A stretch of DNA of 64,000 nucleotides from positions 209,849 to 273,848 of the forward strand of contig JARFTX010000001.1 of the NCBI GenBank assembly GCA_029289265.1. Reading direction: 5' to 3'. The stretch comes from Gammaproteobacteria bacterium (GTDB taxonomy: Bacteria > Pseudomonadota > Gammaproteobacteria > Burkholderiales > Rhodocyclaceae). The notes under the pieces were generated by a model. The model saw only the letters and a program-made list of their open reading frames with translations. It searched no databases and had not been told where the DNA came from. A program made the translations under genes and the position numbers. Numbering within the stretch: position 1 is the stretch's first letter; each line of letters begins with the position of its first letter. Shown here piece after piece: positions 2,550 through 10,285 of this stretch.

Positions 2550-3788
2550 TCAGCCGAACTGTTCGGCGAGCCGCGTGATCAGCGCCTTGCGCTCCAGCTC
2601 CGCGGCGGCGCGCGCGGCGAAGATCCGGAACACCGCGTCGACCAGCATCCCGTCGTCCATCTCCTTTTGGTCGAGAAAGGCGAGGTGGCCGAGCACCTGG
2701 CCGTCGCGGCCGAAGATCGGTACGCCGAGGTAACTCTGGAAGCCGGCCTCGACCGGAAAGGTCGCCTCCAGCCCGCGGCGGTGCAGGCAGGTGCGGCCTT
2801 CGCGGATCACCGTCTCGCAAGGGGTGCCCGGCAGTTCGTACTCCATCGTGTCGAGAAAGCGCGGCGAGGACCAGAAGGCCAGGGTGCGGACCCGGGTCGG
2901 CGGTTGGTCGGCGCATTCGGTGATGAAGGCGCAGGGCACCTCGAGGGCTGCCGCGAAGTGCTGGACCAGGGCGTGGAAGAAGTCATCGCCATAGGTGCCG
3001 GCGGTGCCCTCGACCACCTGGGCGAGCACGTACTCGACCCGCTTGATCGCGCTCACGTCGGTATCCAGGCCGACGAAGCGGTAGGCGCGCCCGTTGGCGT
3101 GGCGCACCGCGTTGCCGCGCGACAGGATCCAGCGGTAGCGCCCGTCCTTGTGGCGCAGCCGCAACTGCCGCTCGTAGCGCGGCGCAAGGCCCCGCAGATG
3201 GGCCTCGAAGGCGCTCTCGGCGGCCGCGACGTCGTCCGGGTGCACGCATGCCCGCCACGCGTCGATGCGGTTCGGGAACTCGTCCTCGGCGTAGCCCAGC
3301 ATGCTCTTCCAGCGCGCCGACAGGAGCAGCGCCTGGTTTTCGAGATCGCGTTCCCATAAGCCGTCGTGGGATCCGCGCACGGCGAGCGCAAGCCGTTCCT
3401 CGCCGAGCTGTGCGGCCTGCTCGGCACGGGTGCGAGCCTGTGCGGCCTGGCGGAGCTCGGCCTCCAGCGCGTGGACGCGCGCGTGGAGCGCTCGGATGCC
3501 ATCGCCGATATTGGCCAGTTCCGTGGCGGTGGCCGGCACCGGTTCGCCCTCGGGTCCGAACGGCGCGCGCGCGACGCGACTCAGCGTGACCAGCGGGCGG
3601 CGGATCTGGCGGTCGACCGATACGCCGACCACGACCAGCACCAGGACCAACCCGATCGCGAGGGCAAGCAGCCGGCCATCGGGCTGCGCGTCGGCGCCGA
3701 TGCCCGGCAGCACCTCCAGCCCGGCTGCGGCGAGCAGCATCGTGGCCGCAACGACGGCCGGCAGCATCACTTTCCAGGTCACTCGCAT
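2550..3788 (-). CDS. Membrane PAS-GAF sensor without an output domain
   Basis: A 412-residue inner-membrane protein. Two hydrophobic segments (about 8-27 and 39-56) are followed by a short HAMP-like linker (IRRPLVTLSRV) and a heptad-rich coiled coil (about 100-130). A PAS domain of the PAS_3 type follows (about 133-250, with the PAC motif RHKDGRYRWILSRGNAV). A GAF domain ends the protein (about 260-405, FQSYLGVPIFGRDGQVLGHLAF). There is no histidine kinase, GGDEF, EAL or MCP module after the GAF, so it must act through a partner or be an orphan. The start is fixed by ggag 10 bp upstream of ATG 3788. The frame is open far upstream, but only as a shadow of the opposite gene. It is divergent from bufB. 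Confidence 0.8.
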   Translation of the reverse strand: MRVTWKVMLPAVVAATMLLAAAGLEVLPGIGADAQPDGRLLALAIGLVLVLVVVGVSVDRQIRRPLVTLSRVARAPFGPEGEPVPATATELANIGDGIRALHARVHALEAELRQAAQARTRAEQAAQLGEERLALAVRGSHDGLWERDLENQALLLSARWKSMLGYAEDEFPNRIDAWRACVHPDDVAAAESAFEAHLRGLAPRYERQLRLRHKDGRYRWILSRGNAVRHANGRAYRFVGLDTDVSAIKRVEYVLAQVVEGTAGTYGDDFFHALVQHFAAALEVPCAFITECADQPPTRVRTLAFWSSPRFLDTMEYELPGTPCETVIREGRTCLHRRGLEATFPVEAGFQSYLGVPIFGRDGQVLGHLAFLDQKEMDDGMLVDAVFRIFAARAAAELERKALITRLAEQFG

Positions 3789-4124
3789 CGCCGCTTCTCC
3801 TGTCTGCACACGGCGCGTGCGTGGCTCGGCGGGGGCGCCGCGGGTCGGCGCGACGCCGGGTTGGGGCCTGGCGGCCGCGCCCCGTCCCTCGTCGCGTCGC
3901 GAGTCTCGCGCCTTCGGGCAGTGCCGGCGAGCGCCCCATATACGGTGTCTAGCATGCATGCGTCGATTGAGCCAGCACTGCCTGCACGGCCACCGCCCGA
4001 TTCGGGGGGCTGCGGCCGGCGCTGCGACCAGCGCTTGATCGGGCCGTGACACTTTCGTGATCGTGGCGACGCACACTCGGCCCATCGCGCAGCCGCGACT
4101 GCGCCAACGGAACGAGGACAGGTC
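3789..4124. other. 336-bp divergent intergenic region
   Basis: Gap between the PAS-GAF gene (leftward) and bufB (rightward). The only structure I can support is the four-box promoter of bufB at 4024-4077, described separately. No coding potential, RNA gene or convincing minus-strand promoter is seen in 3789-4020. Confidence 0.6.
4024..4077 (+). promoter_or_regulatory. Four 11-bp-phased boxes and -10 upstream of bufB
   Basis: Boxes GCGA (4024), TTGA (4035), GTGA (4046) and GTGA (4057) follow one another at exactly 11 bp. A -10-like CACACT starts at 4072, 15 bp after the last box start. The box order equals that of the promoter at 9345-9398. Head-to-tail repeats with 11-bp period are the classic operator form of OmpR/PhoB-family regulators. 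The regulator encoded at 7412-8131 is the natural candidate. Binding is inferred, not shown. Confidence 0.6.
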
Positions 4125-4985
4125 ATGATCGACGCGTCGCCATTCGCTGCCGCCCCGGCGCGGATTCCGCCGCGCGCCGGCATCGGCCTGCGCGCACCCC
4201 ACTATCGCGAGCTGCTCGCCGAGCTGCCCGATGTCGGCTGGCTCGAGGTGCACAGCGAGAACTACTTCGGCGCCGGCGGCCAGCCCCTGCACTATCTCGA
4301 GCGCGCGCGCAGCCATTACCCGCTCAGCCTGCACGGAGTGGGGTTGTCGCTGGGCGCAGCCCACGCGCTCGATCGCAGCCACCTCGCGCGGCTTGCGGCA
4401 CTGGTGCGCCGTTTCGAACCCGATCTGGTGTCCGAGCACCTGAGCTGGGGCTCGGTGCCGGGCCGCCACCTCAACGATCTGCTGCCGCTGCCCTACACCG
4501 AGGAGGCGCTCGCGGTCGCCGCCGCACACGTCTCGCAGGTCCAGGACGCGCTCGGCCGGCAGATCCTGGTCGAGAACATCTCGAGCTACCTGCGCTTTGG
4601 CCATTCGACGCTCGGCGAGGCCGAGTTCATCGCCGCGCTCGCGGCCGAGACCGGCTGCGGGGTCCTGCTCGACGTGAACAACGTCTACGTGAGCGCGGTC
4701 AATCACGGCTTCGATCCCGCCACCTTCTTCGAGGCGATCCCGCCCGAAGCGGTCGGCGAGATCCACCTGGCCGGTTTCGACCGCGTCGGCGCACTCCTCA
4801 TCGACACCCACGGCACGCGCGTTGCCGCGCCGGTGTGGGCGCTCTACCGGCTCGCGCTCGAGCGCTACGGGCGCGTGCCGACGCTCATCGAGTGGGACAC
4901 CGACATCCCTGCGCTCGCCGTGCTGCTGGCCGAAGCGGCGACCGCCGAGTCCCTGATGGAGGCCCGCGATGCCTTCGCTGCGTGA
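4125..4985 (+). CDS. bufB: MNIO-family enzyme (DUF692), bufferin maturation
   Basis: A 286-residue member of DUF692, the multinuclear non-heme iron oxidases (MbnB, TglH and HvfB/BufB relatives). These modify cysteines of small precursor peptides in the cytosol. The TIM-barrel metal-ligand motifs are all visible: HSENYF (about 42-47), [31 protein letters not shown] followed by [15 protein letters not shown] and EWD. The start ATG has gaggac 7 bp upstream. The end overlaps bufC by 17 bp, so the two are translationally coupled, as is typical for DUF692-DUF2063 pairs. The likely substrate is the DUF2282 peptide encoded at 8363-8662, about 3.4 kb away rather than adjacent. The gene is probably controlled by the phased boxes at 4024-4077. 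Confidence 0.9.
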
Positions 4986-5742
4986 GCTGCAGGACGCCTT
5001 CGCCGCGGCCCTGCAGGAACCCTCGGACGAGCGGGTGCTGCCCTGGGTGGTCGCGGACCGGATCGCGCCGGCCGAGCGCCTCGCCGTGTACCGCAACAAC
5101 CTGCGGCACAACTACCGGGAGGCGCTGCGGGCGGTCTATCCGGTGGTCGAGCGCCTCGTCGGCGAGCGCTTCTTCGACCGCATGGCGGACCTGTACGCAC
5201 GCCGCCATCCGTCGACGAGCGGCGACATCCATGGCTTCGGCGGCCGGCTCGCGGCGTTTATCGCCGGCTTCGAGCCGGCCGCAGGAGTGCCCTACCTGCC
5301 CGACATGGCACGGCTCGAGTGGGCGATCCACGCGGTCTTTCACGCCGCCGAGCCGCCGGCCTTGCCGGTGGCGCGGCTGGCCGCGCTCGCCGACACCCGT
5401 CCCGAGGCGCTGCGCTTCGTCCCGAGTCCGGCCTGCCGCCTGATCGCCTCGCGCTGGCCGATCGCGCGCCTGTGGGCGCTCAATCAGCCCGACGCGGCGT
5501 GGGACGACGCGTTCGACATCGATGCGGGCGGCGAGCGGCTGCTGGTGCGCCGCAACGGCTTCGAGGTCGAGCTCGAGACCCTGGAGCCGGCCGAGTTCGA
5601 TCTCCTCGCGCGACTCTCCGGCGGCGAGGCGCTCGCCCCGGCGCTGGAGGCCGTGCGCGCGGTGGCGCCCGAGTTCGATCTGGCGGCGTTTCTCGGCCGC
5701 CACCTCCTGGCCACCACGCTGGCCGACTTCCGCGTCGAGTGA
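4969..5742 (+). CDS. bufC: DUF2063 protein, partner of the MNIO enzyme
   Basis: A 257-residue protein with an N-terminal DUF2063 domain (about 5-95: [38 protein letters not shown]). The C-terminal half is less conserved. In MNIO pathways such proteins are thought to bind and present the precursor peptide to the oxidase. ATG 4969 lies inside the 3' end of bufB (17-bp overlap), so stoichiometric expression with BufB is expected. There is no signal peptide or membrane segment, consistent with a cytosolic complex. The conserved patch [13 protein letters not shown] (about 86-98) is typical of the family. The next gene downstream has its own promoter. Confidence 0.88.
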
Positions 5743-5798
5743 GGGCGGGACGCGGCGCGCGCGCCGCACCGGTCTTGTCCGATGGCCCGCGCCGCGAC

Positions 5799-5852
5799 GT
5801 GACGAAATCGTGAAGTTCGGGCGATCCGGGCGTGAAAGTCGGTGCCGATACT
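5799..5852 (+). promoter_or_regulatory. Four 11-bp-phased boxes and -10 upstream of the CzcE-like gene
   Basis: GTGA (5799), GTGA (5810), GCGA (5821) and GTGA (5832) are spaced 11, 11 and 11 bp. A -10-like GATACT begins at 5847, 15 bp after the last box. The arrangement and much of the surrounding sequence match the bufA promoter at 8247-8300 almost base for base. This suggests duplication of a regulatory cassette and control by the same OmpR-type regulator. Confidence 0.65.
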
Positions 5853-5860
5853 GGGAACCA

Positions 5861-5884
5861 CGGATAGGCAATGACGCGTATCCG
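5861..5884 (+). promoter_or_regulatory. 5'-UTR hairpin of the CzcE-like gene
   Basis: CGGATA (5861-5866) can pair with TATCCG (5879-5884) in the leader between the -10 and the start codon. The same stem, one pair longer, is in the bufA leader at 8308-8332. Conservation in two leaders suggests an mRNA-level role (stability or translation), or simply common descent of the leader. Confidence 0.45.
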
Positions 5885-5910
5885 CCCCCCAACCTGATGG
5901 AGAGTGAATC

Positions 5911-6240
5911 ATGAACACCACACTGATCAGCCGCAGCGCAATCGCCGGCCTGCTCGTTCTCGGGCTCGCCGCGGGCGGACAAGCCCTCGCCGCCGTCAAG
6001 ATGCCTTACGGCTCGATGGCCAACGGCTCGGCGAGCCGCACCATCGTGATCGACAACGGCACGCGCCACGTCAACGTCGAGCGCTTCGAGACGGTGACGC
6101 TGCGCATCAACGGCCAGGATACGAACTGGACCTTCGGCACGCTGCGGACCGGAAGCTTTCCGCTCTCCGAGATCGTGCCGGGCGCCGACGGCGTGCGTGT
6201 CTACGTGCGGGAGAGCCCCCTCTATCAGGGCGGCAACTGA
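5911..6240 (+). CDS. CzcE-like periplasmic metal-binding protein
   Basis: A 109-residue precursor with a clear Sec signal peptide (about 1-27, ending GQALAA). The mature part of about 80 residues resembles the CzcE family of periplasmic copper-binding, metal-resistance proteins (IVIDNGTRHVNV, VTLRINGQDTNWTF, VRVYVRESPLYQGG). It contains no cysteine, so it is not an MNIO substrate, and any copper would be bound by His, Met or Asp residues. The signal peptide and leader resemble those of the DUF2282 gene at 8363. The Shine-Dalgarno is atggagag. The promoter has four phased boxes (5799-5852). It ends convergently with the sensor kinase gene across a strong hairpin. Function is inferred from family and neighbours. 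Confidence 0.72.
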   Translation: MNTTLISRSAIAGLLVLGLAAGGQALAAVKMPYGSMANGSASRTIVIDNGTRHVNVERFETVTLRINGQDTNWTFGTLRTGSFPLSEIVPGADGVRVYVRESPLYQGGN

Positions 6241-6302
6241 GGGCTCGTCGGGCCGGATCCGGCCGTCTGCGTCGGATCCGGACTGCGGCAAGTCCGATGC
6301 TT

Positions 6303-6343
6303 CGGCCCGGGTGCCCCCGCGCCTTCGCGGGGACCCGGGCCGG
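6303..6343. terminator. Long GC hairpin between convergent genes
   Basis: CGGCCCGGGT...ACCCGGGCCG encloses a second stem CCCCGCG/CGCGGGG with loop CCTT and a 2-base bulge, giving about 17 base pairs in total. It lies between the CzcE-like stop (6240) and the kinase stop (6346). It could stop transcription from both sides. There is no long T run, so Rho-independent function is likely but not certain. Confidence 0.55.
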
Positions 6344-6345
6344 CT

Positions 6346-7410
6346 TCATTGCGCGGCGCGGCCGAGCGGCAAGGTCACGACGAAGCGGGTCCCGCTGCCG
6401 GCGCCGCTCTCCACGGCGATCGTGCCGCCGTGCAGTTCGACGATGCGACGCGTGATCGCGAGCCCCAGCCCGGCATTGCCGGTGTCGCCGCGCTCGCCAC
6501 GGTCGATCCGATAGTAGCGGTCGAAGATGCTCGCCAGCTCCTCGGCGGCAATGCCCTGGCCGGTGTCGCTGACGGTGACGATCACGCCGCCGGGGTCGGG
6601 CCCCACGCCGAGCGCGACGGTGCCGCCCGGGGGCGTATAGCGCATCGCGTTCTCGATCAGGTTCTCCAGCACCCGCTCGATCATGCCGATGTCGGCGACG
6701 ATCGCGGGGGTCGCCGCGTCGATGTCGGTCACGAGCTGCTGGCGGGCATGGGCCGCGCGCAGCTCGAACTTCTGGGCGACGTCCTGAGCCAGCTCGGCGA
6801 TCGAGAAGGCCTCCGGACGGGCGCGGATCTCGTGCGCCTCGAGGCGTGTCAGGTCGAACAGGTCGCGCACCAGCAGGCCCAGCCGCTCGCAGTGGCGCGC
6901 GGCGATCAGCAGATAGCTGCGGCGCTCGTCCTGGGTGAGCTTGTCCTCCTGCAGCAGCAGGGTCTCGAGGTAGCCCTGCATCGACGCGAGCGGCGTGCGC
7001 AGGTCGTGCGAGACGTTGGCGAGCAGCTCGCGGCGGTGCGCGTCCACCTTTGCGAGGGCGTCGAGCTGGTCGACGATGCGCTCCGAAATCTCGGCAAAGG
7101 CGCAGGCGAGCCGGTCGATCTCGTCGCCGGCCGCGCCGGGTTCGTCGATCCGCACCGGCTGGGCGAAGCCGCTGGTGCGGAACGCGTCCACGGCTTCGGC
7201 CAGGGTGCGCAGGCGCCGCGTCAGGAAGTGGAACACGACCAGCGCCGCGAGCAGGCTGAAGGCGACGGCGCCGATGACGAGGTCGGTGGCGAGCACCAGC
7301 AGGCGGTCGCGCTCGAGCATGGTCTGGGTCGCGACGATCATCAGCCCGCCGACCGCGACGAACACCCCCATCAGCACGGCGGCGAGCCGGCTGTACAAGG
7401 TGCGGAACAT
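6346..7410 (-). CDS. Sensor histidine kinase with almost no periplasmic domain
   Basis: A 354-residue inner-membrane kinase. TM1 is about 8-28 and TM2 about 43-62, with only a short loop of about 14 residues between them. A HAMP linker (about 63-118), HisKA with phospho-accepting His135 in NVSHDLRTPL and HATPase_c with NLIENAMRYTPPGG, VSDTGQGI and GLGLAI follow. Copper or heavy-metal kinases such as CusS have a large periplasmic sensor, which this one lacks. It may sense within the membrane or through a partner. ATG 7410 lies 1 bp after the regulator stop (TGACATG), so the two genes are coupled. Its place inside the bufferin island suggests control of these genes. Confidence 0.88.
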   Translation of the reverse strand: MFRTLYSRLAAVLMGVFVAVGGLMIVATQTMLERDRLLVLATDLVIGAVAFSLLAALVVFHFLTRRLRTLAEAVDAFRTSGFAQPVRIDEPGAAGDEIDRLACAFAEISERIVDQLDALAKVDAHRRELLANVSHDLRTPLASMQGYLETLLLQEDKLTQDERRSYLLIAARHCERLGLLVRDLFDLTRLEAHEIRARPEAFSIAELAQDVAQKFELRAAHARQQLVTDIDAATPAIVADIGMIERVLENLIENAMRYTPPGGTVALGVGPDPGGVIVTVSDTGQGIAAEELASIFDRYYRIDRGERGDTGNAGLGLAITRRIVELHGGTIAVESGAGSGTRFVVTLPLGRAAQ

Positions 7411-7411
7411 G

Positions 7412-8131
7412 TCAGGGTGTGTCCGGCTTGCGCGTCGTGTCGCGGAACTTGTAACCCACCCCCCAGACGGTCTGGATGTACTCCGGCTGGTTCGGGTTGG
7501 CCTCGATCTTGGCGCGCAGGCGGTTGATGTGCGAATTGACCGTGTGCTCGTAGCCGCTGTGGCTGTAGCCCCACACCTGGTCGAGCAACTGGGTCCGGCT
7601 GAAGACGCGCCCCGGATGGCGGGCGAAATGCAGCAGCAAGTCGAACTCGGTGGCGGTGAGCTCCACCGGCCGGCCGTCGAGCGTGACCTCCCGGCGCACG
7701 ACGTCGATCGCCAGTGCGCCGCTCGCGATCGTCTGCTCCGACGCATCGGCGTGGCGCGCGAGGCTGTCGACGCGGCGAAAGATCGCCTTCACGCGGGCCA
7801 CGAACTCGAGCACGCTGAACGGCTTGGTGATGTAGTCGTCAGCGCCCATTTCCAGACCCAGCACGCGGTCGAGCTCGCCCGACTTGGCGGTCAGCATCAG
7901 GATCGGCGTGTAGCCCGGCCGCGCGCGGATGCGCCGGCACAGCTCCAGCCCGTCGATCCCCGGCAGCATCAGGTCGAGGATCACCAGATCGAAGGGCTTC
8001 GCCTCGAACGCGGCGAATCCGCTGGGACCGTCGGGCGCGAGCGTCACCGTACAGGAGAGCTCGCCGAGTTGCAGCTTGACGAGCCGGGCGATGTCCGGAT
8101 CGTCCTCGATCACAAGAACCTTGCGCGTCAT
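7412..8131 (-). CDS. OmpR/PhoB-family response regulator
   Basis: A 239-residue two-domain regulator. The receiver (about 1-120) has acidic residues in VIEDDPD, phospho-accepting Asp53 in VILDLMLPGIDG, and the conserved Lys in ITKPFS. The winged-helix DNA-binding domain (about 140-232) contains LTATEFDLLLHFARHPGRVF, VNSHINRLRAKIE and TVWGVGYKF. It is transcribed leftward with the kinase. This class binds head-to-tail direct repeats spaced 11 bp, exactly what is seen at the four plus-strand promoters of this island. It is therefore the best candidate regulator. A TATGAT -10 for its own operon may lie at 8192-8197 on the minus strand. Confidence 0.9.
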   Translation of the reverse strand: MTRKVLVIEDDPDIARLVKLQLGELSCTVTLAPDGPSGFAAFEAKPFDLVILDLMLPGIDGLELCRRIRARPGYTPILMLTAKSGELDRVLGLEMGADDYITKPFSVLEFVARVKAIFRRVDSLARHADASEQTIASGALAIDVVRREVTLDGRPVELTATEFDLLLHFARHPGRVFSRTQLLDQVWGYSHSGYEHTVNSHINRLRAKIEANPNQPEYIQTVWGVGYKFRDTTRKPDTP

Positions 8132-8246
8132 GGCGGCACCGGATGGCATGCGCCTGGGGGCAGGCGCGGGCCCGCGAGCGGGGGTGTTTGAATCATAGGC
8201 AAGCCCTCGTACCGGCGATAGGGCGACGCGCGGGCCGCGCCGGCGC

Positions 8247-8300
8247 GTGACGAAAGCGTGAGGATTGGGCGACGCGCGCGTGAAGTTCGAAGCCGACAGT
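8247..8300 (+). promoter_or_regulatory. Four 11-bp-phased boxes and -10 upstream of bufA
   Basis: GTGA (8247), GTGA (8258), GCGA (8269) and GTGA (8280) are spaced 11, 11 and 11 bp. A -10-like GACAGT starts at 8295, again 15 bp after the last box. This is the same box order as at 5799-5852. The site also sits between the divergent regulator gene and bufA, so it could serve autoregulation. Confidence 0.65.
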
Positions 8301-8307
8301 GCACTCC

Positions 8308-8332
8308 GCGGATAGGCGCATTGCGTATCCGC
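8308..8332 (+). promoter_or_regulatory. 5'-UTR hairpin of bufA
   Basis: GCGGATA (8308-8314) pairs perfectly with TATCCGC (8326-8332) over an 11-base loop. The equivalent stem occurs upstream of the CzcE-like gene (5861-5884) at nearly the same distance from the start codon. Confidence 0.45.
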
Positions 8333-8362
8333 ATCCCCACGACACGTAATGGAGAGCACATC

Positions 8363-8662
8363 ATGAAAACCGAACTGATGATCCGCGGTGCGATGGCGAG
8401 TTTGTTGGCCCTCGCGCTGGTCGCGGCCGGCGGCCAGGCCTTCGCCGCCAAAGGCGACGTCGAGAAGTGCGCCGGCATCGCCAAGGCCGGCAAGAACGAC
8501 TGCGGCACCTCGAAGAGCTCCTGCGCCGGCACCGCCACGGTCGACAACGACCCCGAGGCCTGGATTCTGGTGCCCAAGGGTACCTGCGAGAAGATCGCCG
8601 GCGGCATGGTCACCGACAAGGCCTACAACGCGCCCGGCGGCATGGCCGCGCTCAAGAAGTAA
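8363..8662 (+). CDS. bufA: DUF2282 bufferin precursor peptide
   Basis: A 99-residue precursor of the DUF2282 (BufA1/HvfA) family, a signal-peptide-bearing RiPP-type protein whose cysteines are modified by an MNIO enzyme so that it can bind copper in the periplasm. The Sec signal peptide is about residues 1-28 ([18 protein letters not shown]). Four cysteines are visible: Cys36, Cys47, Cys54 and Cys75, in the family pattern [19 protein letters not shown] and VPKGTCEKI. The Shine-Dalgarno is atggagag, 9 bp before ATG 8363; the frame is open further upstream but without family match. The partner genes bufB and bufC are 2.6-4 kb upstream, separated by the two-component genes. A DoxX gene follows, as usual for the family. 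Regulation is probably by the phased boxes at 8247-8300. Confidence 0.9.
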
Positions 8663-8738
8663 GCGCCCCGCGGCTTCGACGGCACCGGCCGCCTCGCGCG
8701 GCCGGCCCGCTCCCCCAACCCCGATTCCGGAGACCGAC

Positions 8739-9230
8739 ATGGATCTCGCAGCCCACCGTCCCGCGTCGATGCGCGCGGCCCATGGAGGCCGCGTCGCGCG
8801 GCTCGCTCAAGCCTTCGAAGCCGCCCGCGCCGGCCTCGTCCTTCTTACCCCGCTCCTCGACTTCGCGATCCGCCTGCTGGTCGCGAGCGTGTTCTTCAAG
8901 GCCGGCCTCGCCAAGATCGCGAGCTGGAGCGGCACGTTGCTGCTGTTCGAGTACGAGTACGCCGTGCCGCTGCTGCCGCCCGAACTCGCGGCCTGGCTCG
9001 GCACCGCCGCCGAGCTGACGCTGCCGGTGCTGCTGGTGCTCGGGCTCGGCACGCGCTTCGCCGCCTTGGCGCTGTTCGTGTTCAACATCGTCGCGGTGAT
9101 CTCCTACCCCGATCTCGGCGAGGTCGGCCTCAAGGATCACCAGTACTGGGGGATCCTGCTGCTCGTGACGCTGTTTCACGGGCCCGGCAAGCTCTCGCTC
9201 GATCATTTGATCAGCCGGCGGCTCGGCTGA
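8739..9230 (+). CDS. DoxX-family inner-membrane protein
   Basis: A 163-residue four-helix membrane protein of the DoxX family. The N-terminal 45 residues are polar. They are followed by helix 1 (AIRLLVASVFFKAGLAKI), then LLLFEYEYAVPLLPPELAAWLG, helices 2-3 (AAELTLPVLLVLGLGTRFAALALFVFNIVAVIS) and helix 4 (YWGILLLVTLFHGPGKLSLD). DoxX proteins accompany DUF2282-DUF692-DUF2063 genes in many proteobacteria (BufD/HvfD), where their role is not settled. The start ATG 8739 has cggag 7 bp upstream, 76 bp after bufA. No terminator lies between, so the two are likely co-transcribed. Confidence 0.85.
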   Translation: MDLAAHRPASMRAAHGGRVARLAQAFEAARAGLVLLTPLLDFAIRLLVASVFFKAGLAKIASWSGTLLLFEYEYAVPLLPPELAAWLGTAAELTLPVLLVLGLGTRFAALALFVFNIVAVISYPDLGEVGLKDHQYWGILLLVTLFHGPGKLSLDHLISRRLG

Positions 9231-9344
9231 GCGGCGGGGAGCGACGACCATGGGAGCTGCTTCCGCCCGTCTTCTCGTACCCGATCCGGGCCTCGGGTGC
9301 AGTCGCAACGGCCGAGGCGGATGCAACGGCCGCGGCGGGTGCCC

Positions 9345-9398
9345 GCGACCGAAGCTTGAACCGCCCGTGATCGCGCCGTGATCCTCGCCGCCGATACT
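9345..9398 (+). promoter_or_regulatory. Four 11-bp-phased boxes and -10 upstream of the gene at 9429
   Basis: GCGA (9345), TTGA (9356), GTGA (9367) and GTGA (9378) are spaced 11, 11 and 11 bp. GATACT starts at 9393, exactly 15 bp after the last box. The order equals that of the bufB promoter (4024-4077). This ties the two unknown genes downstream to the same regulon. Confidence 0.6.
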
Positions 9399-9428
9399 GG
9401 AATCGTGATCAGCGCAGAGGAGACGATC

Positions 9429-9857
9429 ATGAAAACCCCGACTTCCCGGCCGGCGCGCGAGGACACCGCTCGCCGCCACCCGCCCGAACCCGCCGTCAAT
9501 CGCGCAGGCCGAAGGATTCGTCGCCGCATTCCACGCACGCCGTTCGGCCGCCGCACGCTCGCCCGCGAGAACGCCTGCTTTCACGGGAGCGGCGGTGTGA
9601 GCGACGGCAACCGCGCCTTCGGCTTCCGGCCCGCCTTCCTCGACACCCAGACGCGGATCGTCTACCTGTCGTGCTTCGCCAACGGCGAGCCCGCGCCGTG
9701 CCATCTGCTCGACGGCCTGCCCGACGAACTGGTGGTGACGCGCGAGGCGGGCGGTCGCGTCACCGAGGTCAAGCCGACGCTCGTCTCCGGCTTCGTCCTC
9801 GACGGCTGCTTCTACGACCGCGAGGCGGCCGCACGCAAGGTCGCGGCCGAGCCATGA
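9429..9857 (+). CDS. Unknown protein in the bufferin island
   Basis: A 142-residue protein I do not recognise. The N-terminal 50 residues are strongly basic (RRIRRRIPRTPFGRR) without a hydrophobic signal. The C-terminal 80 look folded (AFLDTQTRIVYLSCFANG, HLLDGLPDELVVTREAGGRVTEV). Three cysteines are present. The start ATG 9429 has gaggag 6 bp upstream. A GTG near 9597 would give only the folded part, so the basic tail could be misannotated. It ends in an ATGA overlap with the next gene, and its promoter carries the same phased boxes as bufA and bufB. A metal-related role is inferred from this shared promoter only. Confidence 0.55.
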   Translation: MKTPTSRPAREDTARRHPPEPAVNRAGRRIRRRIPRTPFGRRTLARENACFHGSGGVSDGNRAFGFRPAFLDTQTRIVYLSCFANGEPAPCHLLDGLPDELVVTREAGGRVTEVKPTLVSGFVLDGCFYDREAAARKVAAEP

Positions 9858-10285
9858 TGCGCACCGCCCGTGGCTGGTTCGGGCGCTGGCGCCGCCTGGA
9901 CATTCGTCTGCCGGGTCCGCAGCTCGGCGACCGCGCGACGACCCCGGTATCGGCGAGCCCGCTCTACCGCCTGCTGTTTGCCCATTGCTGGCTCGCCTTC
10001 CTGCTCAAGGGCATCTGTTTCGTCGCATTCGGCGCGATCTCGCTCAATCTGGTGCAGTCCCTGGTCGCCAACTTCGAATTTCTCGGCCGCTTCGGCCTGG
10101 TCGCGGTGCGCGAAGGGGCGCTGCGCCAGCTCGTCGAGCTGGTGGCATCGGGCTACTCGGCAGCCGCTTTCTATCTGGGCTTCAAGCTTTGCGAGAAAGT
10201 GCTGATCGACCGGTTATGTGCGGCGCCCGTTTCGGCCGCAGCCACCTGCGCCGACCGCCCCGACGCAGCGAGCGAATCGCGTTGA
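9854..10285 (+). CDS. Unknown small membrane protein
   Basis: A 143-residue protein, start codon overlapping the upstream stop (ATGA), so translationally coupled. The N-terminal 40 residues are basic and Pro-rich. The middle holds two clear membrane segments: LLFAHCWLAFLLKGICFVAFGAISLNLVQSL split around 45-70, and LVASGYSAAAFYLGFKL around 98-115. The C-terminal tail is short and polar. Family unknown; it resembles accessory membrane proteins of transport or electron-transfer modules only in a general way. Together with the 9429 gene it forms a two-gene operon under the island's phased-box promoter. Confidence 0.55.
   Translation: MMRTARGWFGRWRRLDIRLPGPQLGDRATTPVSASPLYRLLFAHCWLAFLLKGICFVAFGAISLNLVQSLVANFEFLGRFGLVAVREGALRQLVELVASGYSAAAFYLGFKLCEKVLIDRLCAAPVSAAATCADRPDAASESR

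Follow-up and report, generated by a model that had tools for sequence, protein, structure and literature searches.

The bufferin cluster analyzed here lies in a 64,000-nucleotide stretch of a Rhodocyclaceae genome (hereafter the window; contig JARFTX010000001.1) and includes, besides the DUF2282 bufferin precursor gene bufA, a gene for a CzcE-like protein. These two genes share a 5′ block, and it is well supported that this block was copied between them. Native to bufA, as we reconstruct it, the block would consist of a box array, a −10 element, a 5′ hairpin, the leader, a Shine-Dalgarno sequence and a signal peptide. Probably, a copy of it came to lie behind bufC in an ancestral genome, where it now heads the CzcE domain and thereby forms a chimeric gene. 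Our explanation as a whole, in which the bufA block was copied onto CzcE, a two-component system controls the regulon, the hairpin stabilizes the mRNA and the signal peptide serves export, appears probable to us. The elements concerned are the following:

5799..5852, plus strand: four-box array and −10 of the czcE-like gene (boxes at 5799, 5810, 5821 and 5832; ATACT at 5848-5852; score 20/21)
5861..5884, plus strand: predicted leader hairpin of the czcE-like mRNA (fold; compensated changes among nine family leaders)
5899..5904, plus strand: Shine-Dalgarno sequence ggagag of the czcE-like gene (read from the sequence)
5911..5994, plus strand: bufA-type signal peptide of the czcE-like gene (DUF2282 signal-peptide hidden Markov model, HMM: 36.5 bits, E 6.6e-10)
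5911..6240, plus strand: chimeric czcE-like gene, product without cysteine (PF16986, E 4e-22; match to PDB 2wto, E 4.7e-9)
6346..7410, minus strand: sensor histidine kinase (HK; HisKA, HATPase_c)
7412..8131, minus strand: OmpR/PhoB-family response regulator (RR; Response_reg, Trans_reg_C), the candidate reader of the arrays
8247..8300, plus strand: four-box array and −10 of bufA (boxes at 8247, 8258, 8269 and 8280; ACAGT at 8296-8300; score 18/21)
8308..8332, plus strand: predicted leader hairpin of the bufA mRNA (fold; compensated changes in family leaders)
8351..8356, plus strand: Shine-Dalgarno sequence ggagag of bufA (read from the sequence)
8363..8449, plus strand: bufA signal peptide (alignment with the czcE-like signal peptide)
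8363..8662, plus strand: bufA, DUF2282 bufferin precursor with four cysteines (PF10048, E 3.8e-25; NCBIfam BufA2, 22.6 bits, below the cut-off of 60)

The HK/RR pair thus sits on the opposite strand, between the czcE-like gene and bufA.

The 5′ block of bufA and the chimeric czcE-like gene

Local alignment of window positions 5741-5940 with 8191-8392 scored 98 over about 150 bases, while the best of about 2000 random pairs of 200-base windows reached 40, which rules out chance similarity. Similarity starts some 16 bp upstream of the first box and extends through the array, −10, leader hairpin and Shine-Dalgarno sequence into the signal peptide. Nor, by reasoning, is an assembly duplicate tenable: 28% of positions differ between the two blocks, and both sit within one 326-kb contig. 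The original prediction, made from this DNA alone, had already noted the close match of the two upstream regions, which the alignment confirms. Folding returned exactly the hairpin coordinates it had given, the Shine-Dalgarno sequences and ATGAA starts are present as claimed, and the likeness of the signal peptides (start codons at 5911 and 8363; the czcE-like one reads MNTTLISRSAIAGLLVLGLAAGGQALAA) amounts to 60% identity. Its description of the boxes needed correction: the arrays are real, yet each has four boxes at 11-bp steps (GTGA-N7-GTGA-N7-GCGA-N7-GTGA), followed by 12 bases and an ATACT-like −10. Arrays were scored by boxes plus −10 (maximum 21), with the 11-bp spacing and the fixed N12 built into the scheme.

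That the mature proteins are unrelated, one without and one with four cysteines, was likewise borne out: BufA belongs to DUF2282, whereas the other protein has a CzcE domain (residues 33-106; 78.6 bits, Pfam cut-off 30) and no cysteine after residue 30. Its residues 23-108 align to 40-131 of 2wto. This domain is what it has in common with the CzcE family, named after the periplasmic copper-binding protein of Cupriavidus metallidurans (PDB 2wto/2wtp); in contrast to that family, it carries a bufA-type signal peptide and promoter and is missing the HEDYSE..HW stretch of many homologs. The Pfam domain is not defined by the N-terminus, which here is unlike that of other CzcE proteins. An HMM of 58 DUF2282 signal peptides, run on 3841 open reading frame (ORF) starts of the collected loci, gave only two strong matches outside DUF2282, namely the window CzcE (36.5 bits) and a protein, here called X, of genome G132 (44.9 bits; G and L numbers denote genomes and loci of our comparison). 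Further matches scored 23.2 bits (L030, DUF2282-like and missed by the cysteine pattern) and 18.7 bits, and other CzcE proteins 13.9 bits at most. Among 71 other CzcE genes from named genomes, none had a bufA-like signal peptide (best score 46, as compared to 68 for the window CzcE against the window bufA and 64 against that of G017), and none had an array within 400 nt upstream (best 14/21 versus 20/21 in the window). Nor did these loci contain a bufA, bufB, bufC or DoxX match within at most 8 kb, and often less, per side. Besides, 13 plasmid records matched CzcE, none over 80% of the query, and all ten matches listed begin at residue 32 or 33. Judged from these comparisons of sequence, the window CzcE is a chimera with a DUF2282-type signal peptide foreign to CzcE, and because of this foreign origin we take the copying to have run from bufA to CzcE.

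In the closest relative, G358 (84% identity in the RR, 86% in bufA), bufB-bufC are followed by HK and RR on the other strand and then by array-bufA-doxX; with bufC ending at 8462 and the HK match extending to 8476, there is no room for a gene between them. A further chimera in the bufC-HK gap was considered for G187 and G151 and rejected, as the gap contains a minus-strand ORF instead.

A second case was found in G132, where a divergent RR gene is followed by array-hairpin-signal peptide-X and array-hairpin-signal peptide-bufA, with X and bufA in tandem. X has 115 amino acids, no cysteine and no Pfam match at E 1. It belongs to a cysteine-free family with YxxAFxG-like repeats (X at L170 2858-2397, minus strand; second G132 copy at L242), and the paralog elsewhere in G132, 48% identical, bears a signal peptide of ordinary type (10.7 bits). 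In G023, a member of the G132 genus, the only match to X lies in the bufA signal peptide. In a tree of 16 blocks, that of X groups with the bufA blocks of G132 and G023 (support 100/99), and that of czcE groups with those of the window and G358 (82/82), branching outside that pair. One ancient copy common to CzcE and X was rejected by the approximately unbiased (AU) test (p-AU 5e-26), with the constraint grouping chosen after the tree was seen; a grouping of X with the G132 bufA alone was rejected as well (0.0099). Weighing against this placement, czcE with the window bufA alone was not rejected (p-AU 0.051) and its branch support is just 82/82, so the czcE copy may be older or younger than the G358 split. 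Since a single origin of the czcE and X blocks is rejected, the block was copied at least twice, so that it may be no accident but a module that can be reused.

How the czcE-like gene acquired the block is a closer call. The front end may have been brought to a czcE already present; alternatively, a second bufA that stood behind bufC in an ancestor could have kept its front end while the CzcE domain replaced its body. The latter is a sub-case of our explanation, and we hold it to be only slightly short of even odds. G017, G366, G377 and G094 have a bufA with its own array directly behind bufC, the position that czcE occupies in the window; in the tree, the bufA blocks of window and G358 group to the exclusion of the czcE block; and X and bufA stand in tandem in G132. 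On the other hand, none of the loci opened has an intact bufA at both places, and the branch support mentioned above is weak.

The leader hairpin

For comparison, a set of 68 bufA rows was drawn from the loci that were the best matches listed; it left out at least one known copy, the second bufA of G088 (L057, ATG 8467), which has an array of 16 about 200 nt upstream. An array of at least 15 was present at 16 of the 68 rows, in each case 112-125 nt before the ATG, and the remaining 52 scored at most 14. The original prediction hinged on orthologous leaders being alike and on covarying hairpin changes. Family bufA leaders proved to be similar, and changes in the stem are mostly compensated: in an alignment of nine family leaders (eight bufA and czcE), a 9-pair stem has 92.6% of cells paired (75/81), with three pairs changed on both sides, whereas slid versions reach at most 42.5%. 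Three of five shuffle measures on this alignment exceeded all 500 shuffles. In a second alignment, of 16 rows (G377 left out), the stem is 74.1% paired versus at most 39.4% when slid. When each leader was compared with its own shuffles, 12 of the 16 array-bearing bufA leaders fell at or under a fraction of 0.063. A structure model recovered its training rows, and G377 as a near copy of training rows, with 50-66 bits. In all 16 array-bearing bufA leaders and in that of czcE, the predicted stem starts 5-11 nt behind the −10. A stem also folds at nt 5 in the leader of bufB and at nt 4 in that of orf8, a further gene of the cluster, which makes stem position alone weak evidence.

Several results besides these bufB and orf8 stems weigh against a conserved hairpin. 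For the remaining four of the 16 bufA leaders (G547, G136, G151, G187), about a tenth or more of the shuffles folded at least as well, and two of the five shuffle measures on the nine-leader alignment were ordinary (55 and 272 of 500 shuffles). RNAalifold found no consensus among the 16 leaders of the second alignment, and the structure model detected no other held-out leader significantly (L170, E 0.088; L059, E 0.94). Finally, z-scores did not differ between the 16 array-bearing and 52 array-less leaders (p 0.11; windows set from the ATG). On balance, the stem appears to us to be conserved within the family, as far as comparison of leaders can tell.

Stem-loops at the 5′ terminus of the ompA/papA type stabilize mRNA. 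The hairpin described here would likewise lie near the mRNA 5′ end; different from those cases, it is part of a copied block and its transcription start site is predicted. A role as 5′-terminal stabilizer is a fair guess, and at or near the predicted 5′ end the hairpin would most likely guard against 5′-end-dependent decay. Alternatively, it could be a regulatory switch or an incidental inverted repeat, which we rate as a serious prospect though not the favored one. Such a view fits the absence of an Rfam match in a search of window positions 3900-9500, the unexceptional energies as compared to array-less leaders and the like-positioned stems of bufB and orf8, while the compensated changes that preserve the outer stem in the family speak against it.

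The signal peptide and its possible reading by BufB-BufC

In our overall explanation, the signal peptide would export CzcE, and it may also be read by BufB-BufC. Preliminary results mentioned in a passage of PMC12452194 indicate that the sequence recognized by BufB-BufC includes the bufferin signal peptide. As stated in a passage of PMC13419390, HvfA without its signal sequence is modified poorly by HvfBC; the same article cites work from 2026 that, by its title, presents the Sec signal peptide as also serving as leader in bufferin biosynthesis. Given these reports, the copied block may carry a recognition tag as well.

A stronger version, in which the copied signal peptide is chiefly a BufB-BufC recognition leader and the maturation complex has the cysteine-free CzcE and X as clients, escorts or decoys, seems unlikely to us, even though the preliminary results on BufB-BufC recognition (PMC12452194) fit it. 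Both chimeras match the bufferin signal-peptide family, retaining its motif, and their pN (nonsynonymous) lies below pS (synonymous), with pN/pS of 0.21/0.53 and 0.16/0.54. Yet the cysteines that bufferin-type enzymes modify are absent, Sec export alone would constrain the sequence too, and with about 28 codons a firm test is out of reach. Moreover, the chimeras are less constrained than the signal peptides of bufA genes compared with each other (pN/pS 0.14/0.51 and 0.00/0.25). Lacking cysteines, CzcE and X could be involved as clients solely through binding, export timing or competition. One may even speculate, at similarly long odds, that the bufferin promoter-hairpin-leader block is a movable leader module of the type known from ribosomally synthesized and post-translationally modified peptides, placed at least twice onto cysteine-free periplasmic proteins (CzcE, X). 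Produced alongside the metallophore and binding BufB-BufC via the leader, these would serve bufferin maturation and export as escorts, decoys or timing devices. Fusions such as MerC-Buf1 and Buf1-cytochrome c, described in passages of PMC12452194, also join bufferin parts to metal-related domains; they contain the bufferin domain, whereas here only promoter, leader and signal peptide are present, with no bufferin body.

The box arrays and the proposed bufferin regulon

The remaining features of the cluster are:

2550..3788, minus strand: PAS-GAF membrane protein without kinase domain match (Pfam PAS_3, E 4.9e-24; GAF, E 1.2e-6), divergent from bufB
4024..4077, plus strand: four-box array and −10 upstream of bufB (GCGA/TTGA/GTGA/GTGA, N12, ACACT; score 18/21)
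4125..4985, plus strand: bufB, MNIO bufferin maturase (NCBIfam MNIO_BufB, 381 bits, cut-off 310)
4969..5742, plus strand: bufC-like DUF2063 partner protein (PF09836, E 4.3e-25)
8739..9230, plus strand: DoxX/HvfX-like membrane protein (PF07681, E 2.3e-17; HvfX, 59 bits, below the cut-off of 80)
9345..9398, plus strand: four-box array and −10 upstream of orf8 (score 19/21; leader 30 nt)
9429..9857, plus strand: orf8, 142-aa protein (no Pfam match at E 1)

The window contains four arrays of at least 18/21, all within the cluster, upstream of bufB (4024), czcE (5799), bufA (8247) and orf8 (9345), while 200 first-order Markov sequences yielded none of at least 17/21. A genome-wide scan for two boxes plus ATACT (up to one mismatch) found four places, three of them in the cluster; the bufA array, with its poorer −10, was not among them. 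Promoters of the PhoB/OmpR type have direct repeats at 11 bp adjoining the −10, and we take the four-box geometry to fit tandem dimers of an OmpR/PhoB-family regulator. The boxes indeed look like an array for such a regulator, with 11-bp direct repeats next to the −10 and an OmpR-family RR encoded alongside; in contrast to the pho box, they are GTGA boxes, and RR binding is predicted. The HK would probably sense a periplasmic metal signal and, with the RR binding the four boxes as two tandem dimers adjoining the −10, bufB-bufC, czcE, bufA-doxX and orf8 would be switched on jointly.

RR matches at E 1e-80 or better occur in 13 of 395 family genomes, and the nine with at least 70% identity all have an array-bearing bufA. 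The stretch YEHTVN[SAT]HINRLR of the DNA-binding domain is present in 13 of 14 proteins compared, the window's included, the exception being L063. G132, which has an array-bearing bufA, is missing from the E 1e-80 list; the contig breaks off within its RR gene, which starts next to the array. Some observations count against the pairing of RR and array. The bufA −10 (ACAGT) is poor, the RR of G023 is on a different contig from its array-bearing bufA, G126 has an array-bearing bufA but no RR match at E 1e-80, and arrays occur without a detected RR nearby at L057 (G088), L058 (G097) and L059 (G094), from other families of the order. All in all, czcE and bufA are likely co-regulated by the local two-component system, judging from anatomy and co-occurrence. 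Of the original proposal that a 5′ cassette was copied to bring two unrelated proteins under one control, the copying stands, given the block homology, the signal peptide foreign to CzcE and the second case in G132, and the shared control has this likelihood. Common control would not by itself require the entire block, since the arrays of bufB and orf8 come with no related leader or signal peptide.

This recurrence of arrays, which indicates that they arise or spread alone, is what might favor convergence, i.e. two genes of one regulon having evolved similar promoters separately, with signal peptides alike as all Sec signals are; however, the DNA similarity is continuous from the array via leader and Shine-Dalgarno sequence into the coding region, other CzcE signal peptides score far lower on the DUF2282 HMM, and with the block alignment and the 71-gene comparison this makes convergence very improbable.

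A scan for GTGA-N7-GTGA-N7-GNGA-N7-GTGA matched in 46 of the 395 family genomes, with bufA-type matches in G000, G358, G187, G151, G132, G023 and G136; most of the matches listed were, by eye, of other kinds, such as 11-bp tandem repeats and GTGAGGAAAG and GTGACCAAAC series. In L074, an array of 17 (at 6751) that lies some 1250 nt upstream of its czcE and has no ORF found behind it was taken as chance. Arrays like those of the window also stand before EF-hand proteins in G088 (L057 10509 = L021 933) and G097 (L058 4336); the N-termini of these proteins have signal-like stretches. In G094 (L059 12531, minus strand), an array lies before a small cysteine-rich protein resembling, by eye, EGKCG/oxazolin-type precursors, upstream of a second bufA.

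As for the other parts of the cluster, the PAS-GAF membrane protein is perhaps an additional sensor, and it has homologs at 7 of 12 other loci with an RR match. The orf8 array carries ATACT, and orf8 is followed by orf9 (region 9345-10285); neither has a Pfam match, nor a tblastn match among those listed in the G358 locus L153. A GC-rich inverted repeat seen by eye at 6304-6345, between the convergent czcE and HK genes, is perhaps a shared terminator; a sigma-70 and terminator scan of 5700-8800 found nothing and does not list this repeat either.

Buf1 (DUF2282) clusters, including gigPABT of C. metallidurans, are described in passages of PMC12452194 and PMC10304878 as combining a DUF2282 precursor with Sec signal peptide, an MNIO maturase, a DUF2063 partner and DoxX. 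The window cluster likewise has a DUF2282 precursor with signal peptide and four cysteines, adjoined by a BufB maturase, a DUF2063 partner and a DoxX gene; it differs by the extra CzcE chimera. The regulators named for Buf1 clusters in the passages of PMC12452194 are extracytoplasmic function sigma factors and anti-sigma factors, as opposed to the two-component system here, and the main text of that article does not contain the terms "two-component", "response regulator", "histidine kinase" or "CzcE". More broadly, the titles, abstract openings and text passages covered, with subscription papers mostly outside, name neither a two-component bufferin regulon nor a CzcE-bufferin chimera.

In summary, the present work describes what appears to be a clear bacterial case of a promoter, an mRNA hairpin and an export or leader peptide being moved as a unit between unrelated proteins, twice. 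It also points to a two-component regulon for bufferins, beside the sigma-factor genes already described. With their leader kept and cysteines absent, CzcE and X could serve as two natural test proteins for the reading of a Sec signal peptide by BufB-BufC, and it is the recurrence of the copying, together with this testable leader question, that gives the finding its interest.

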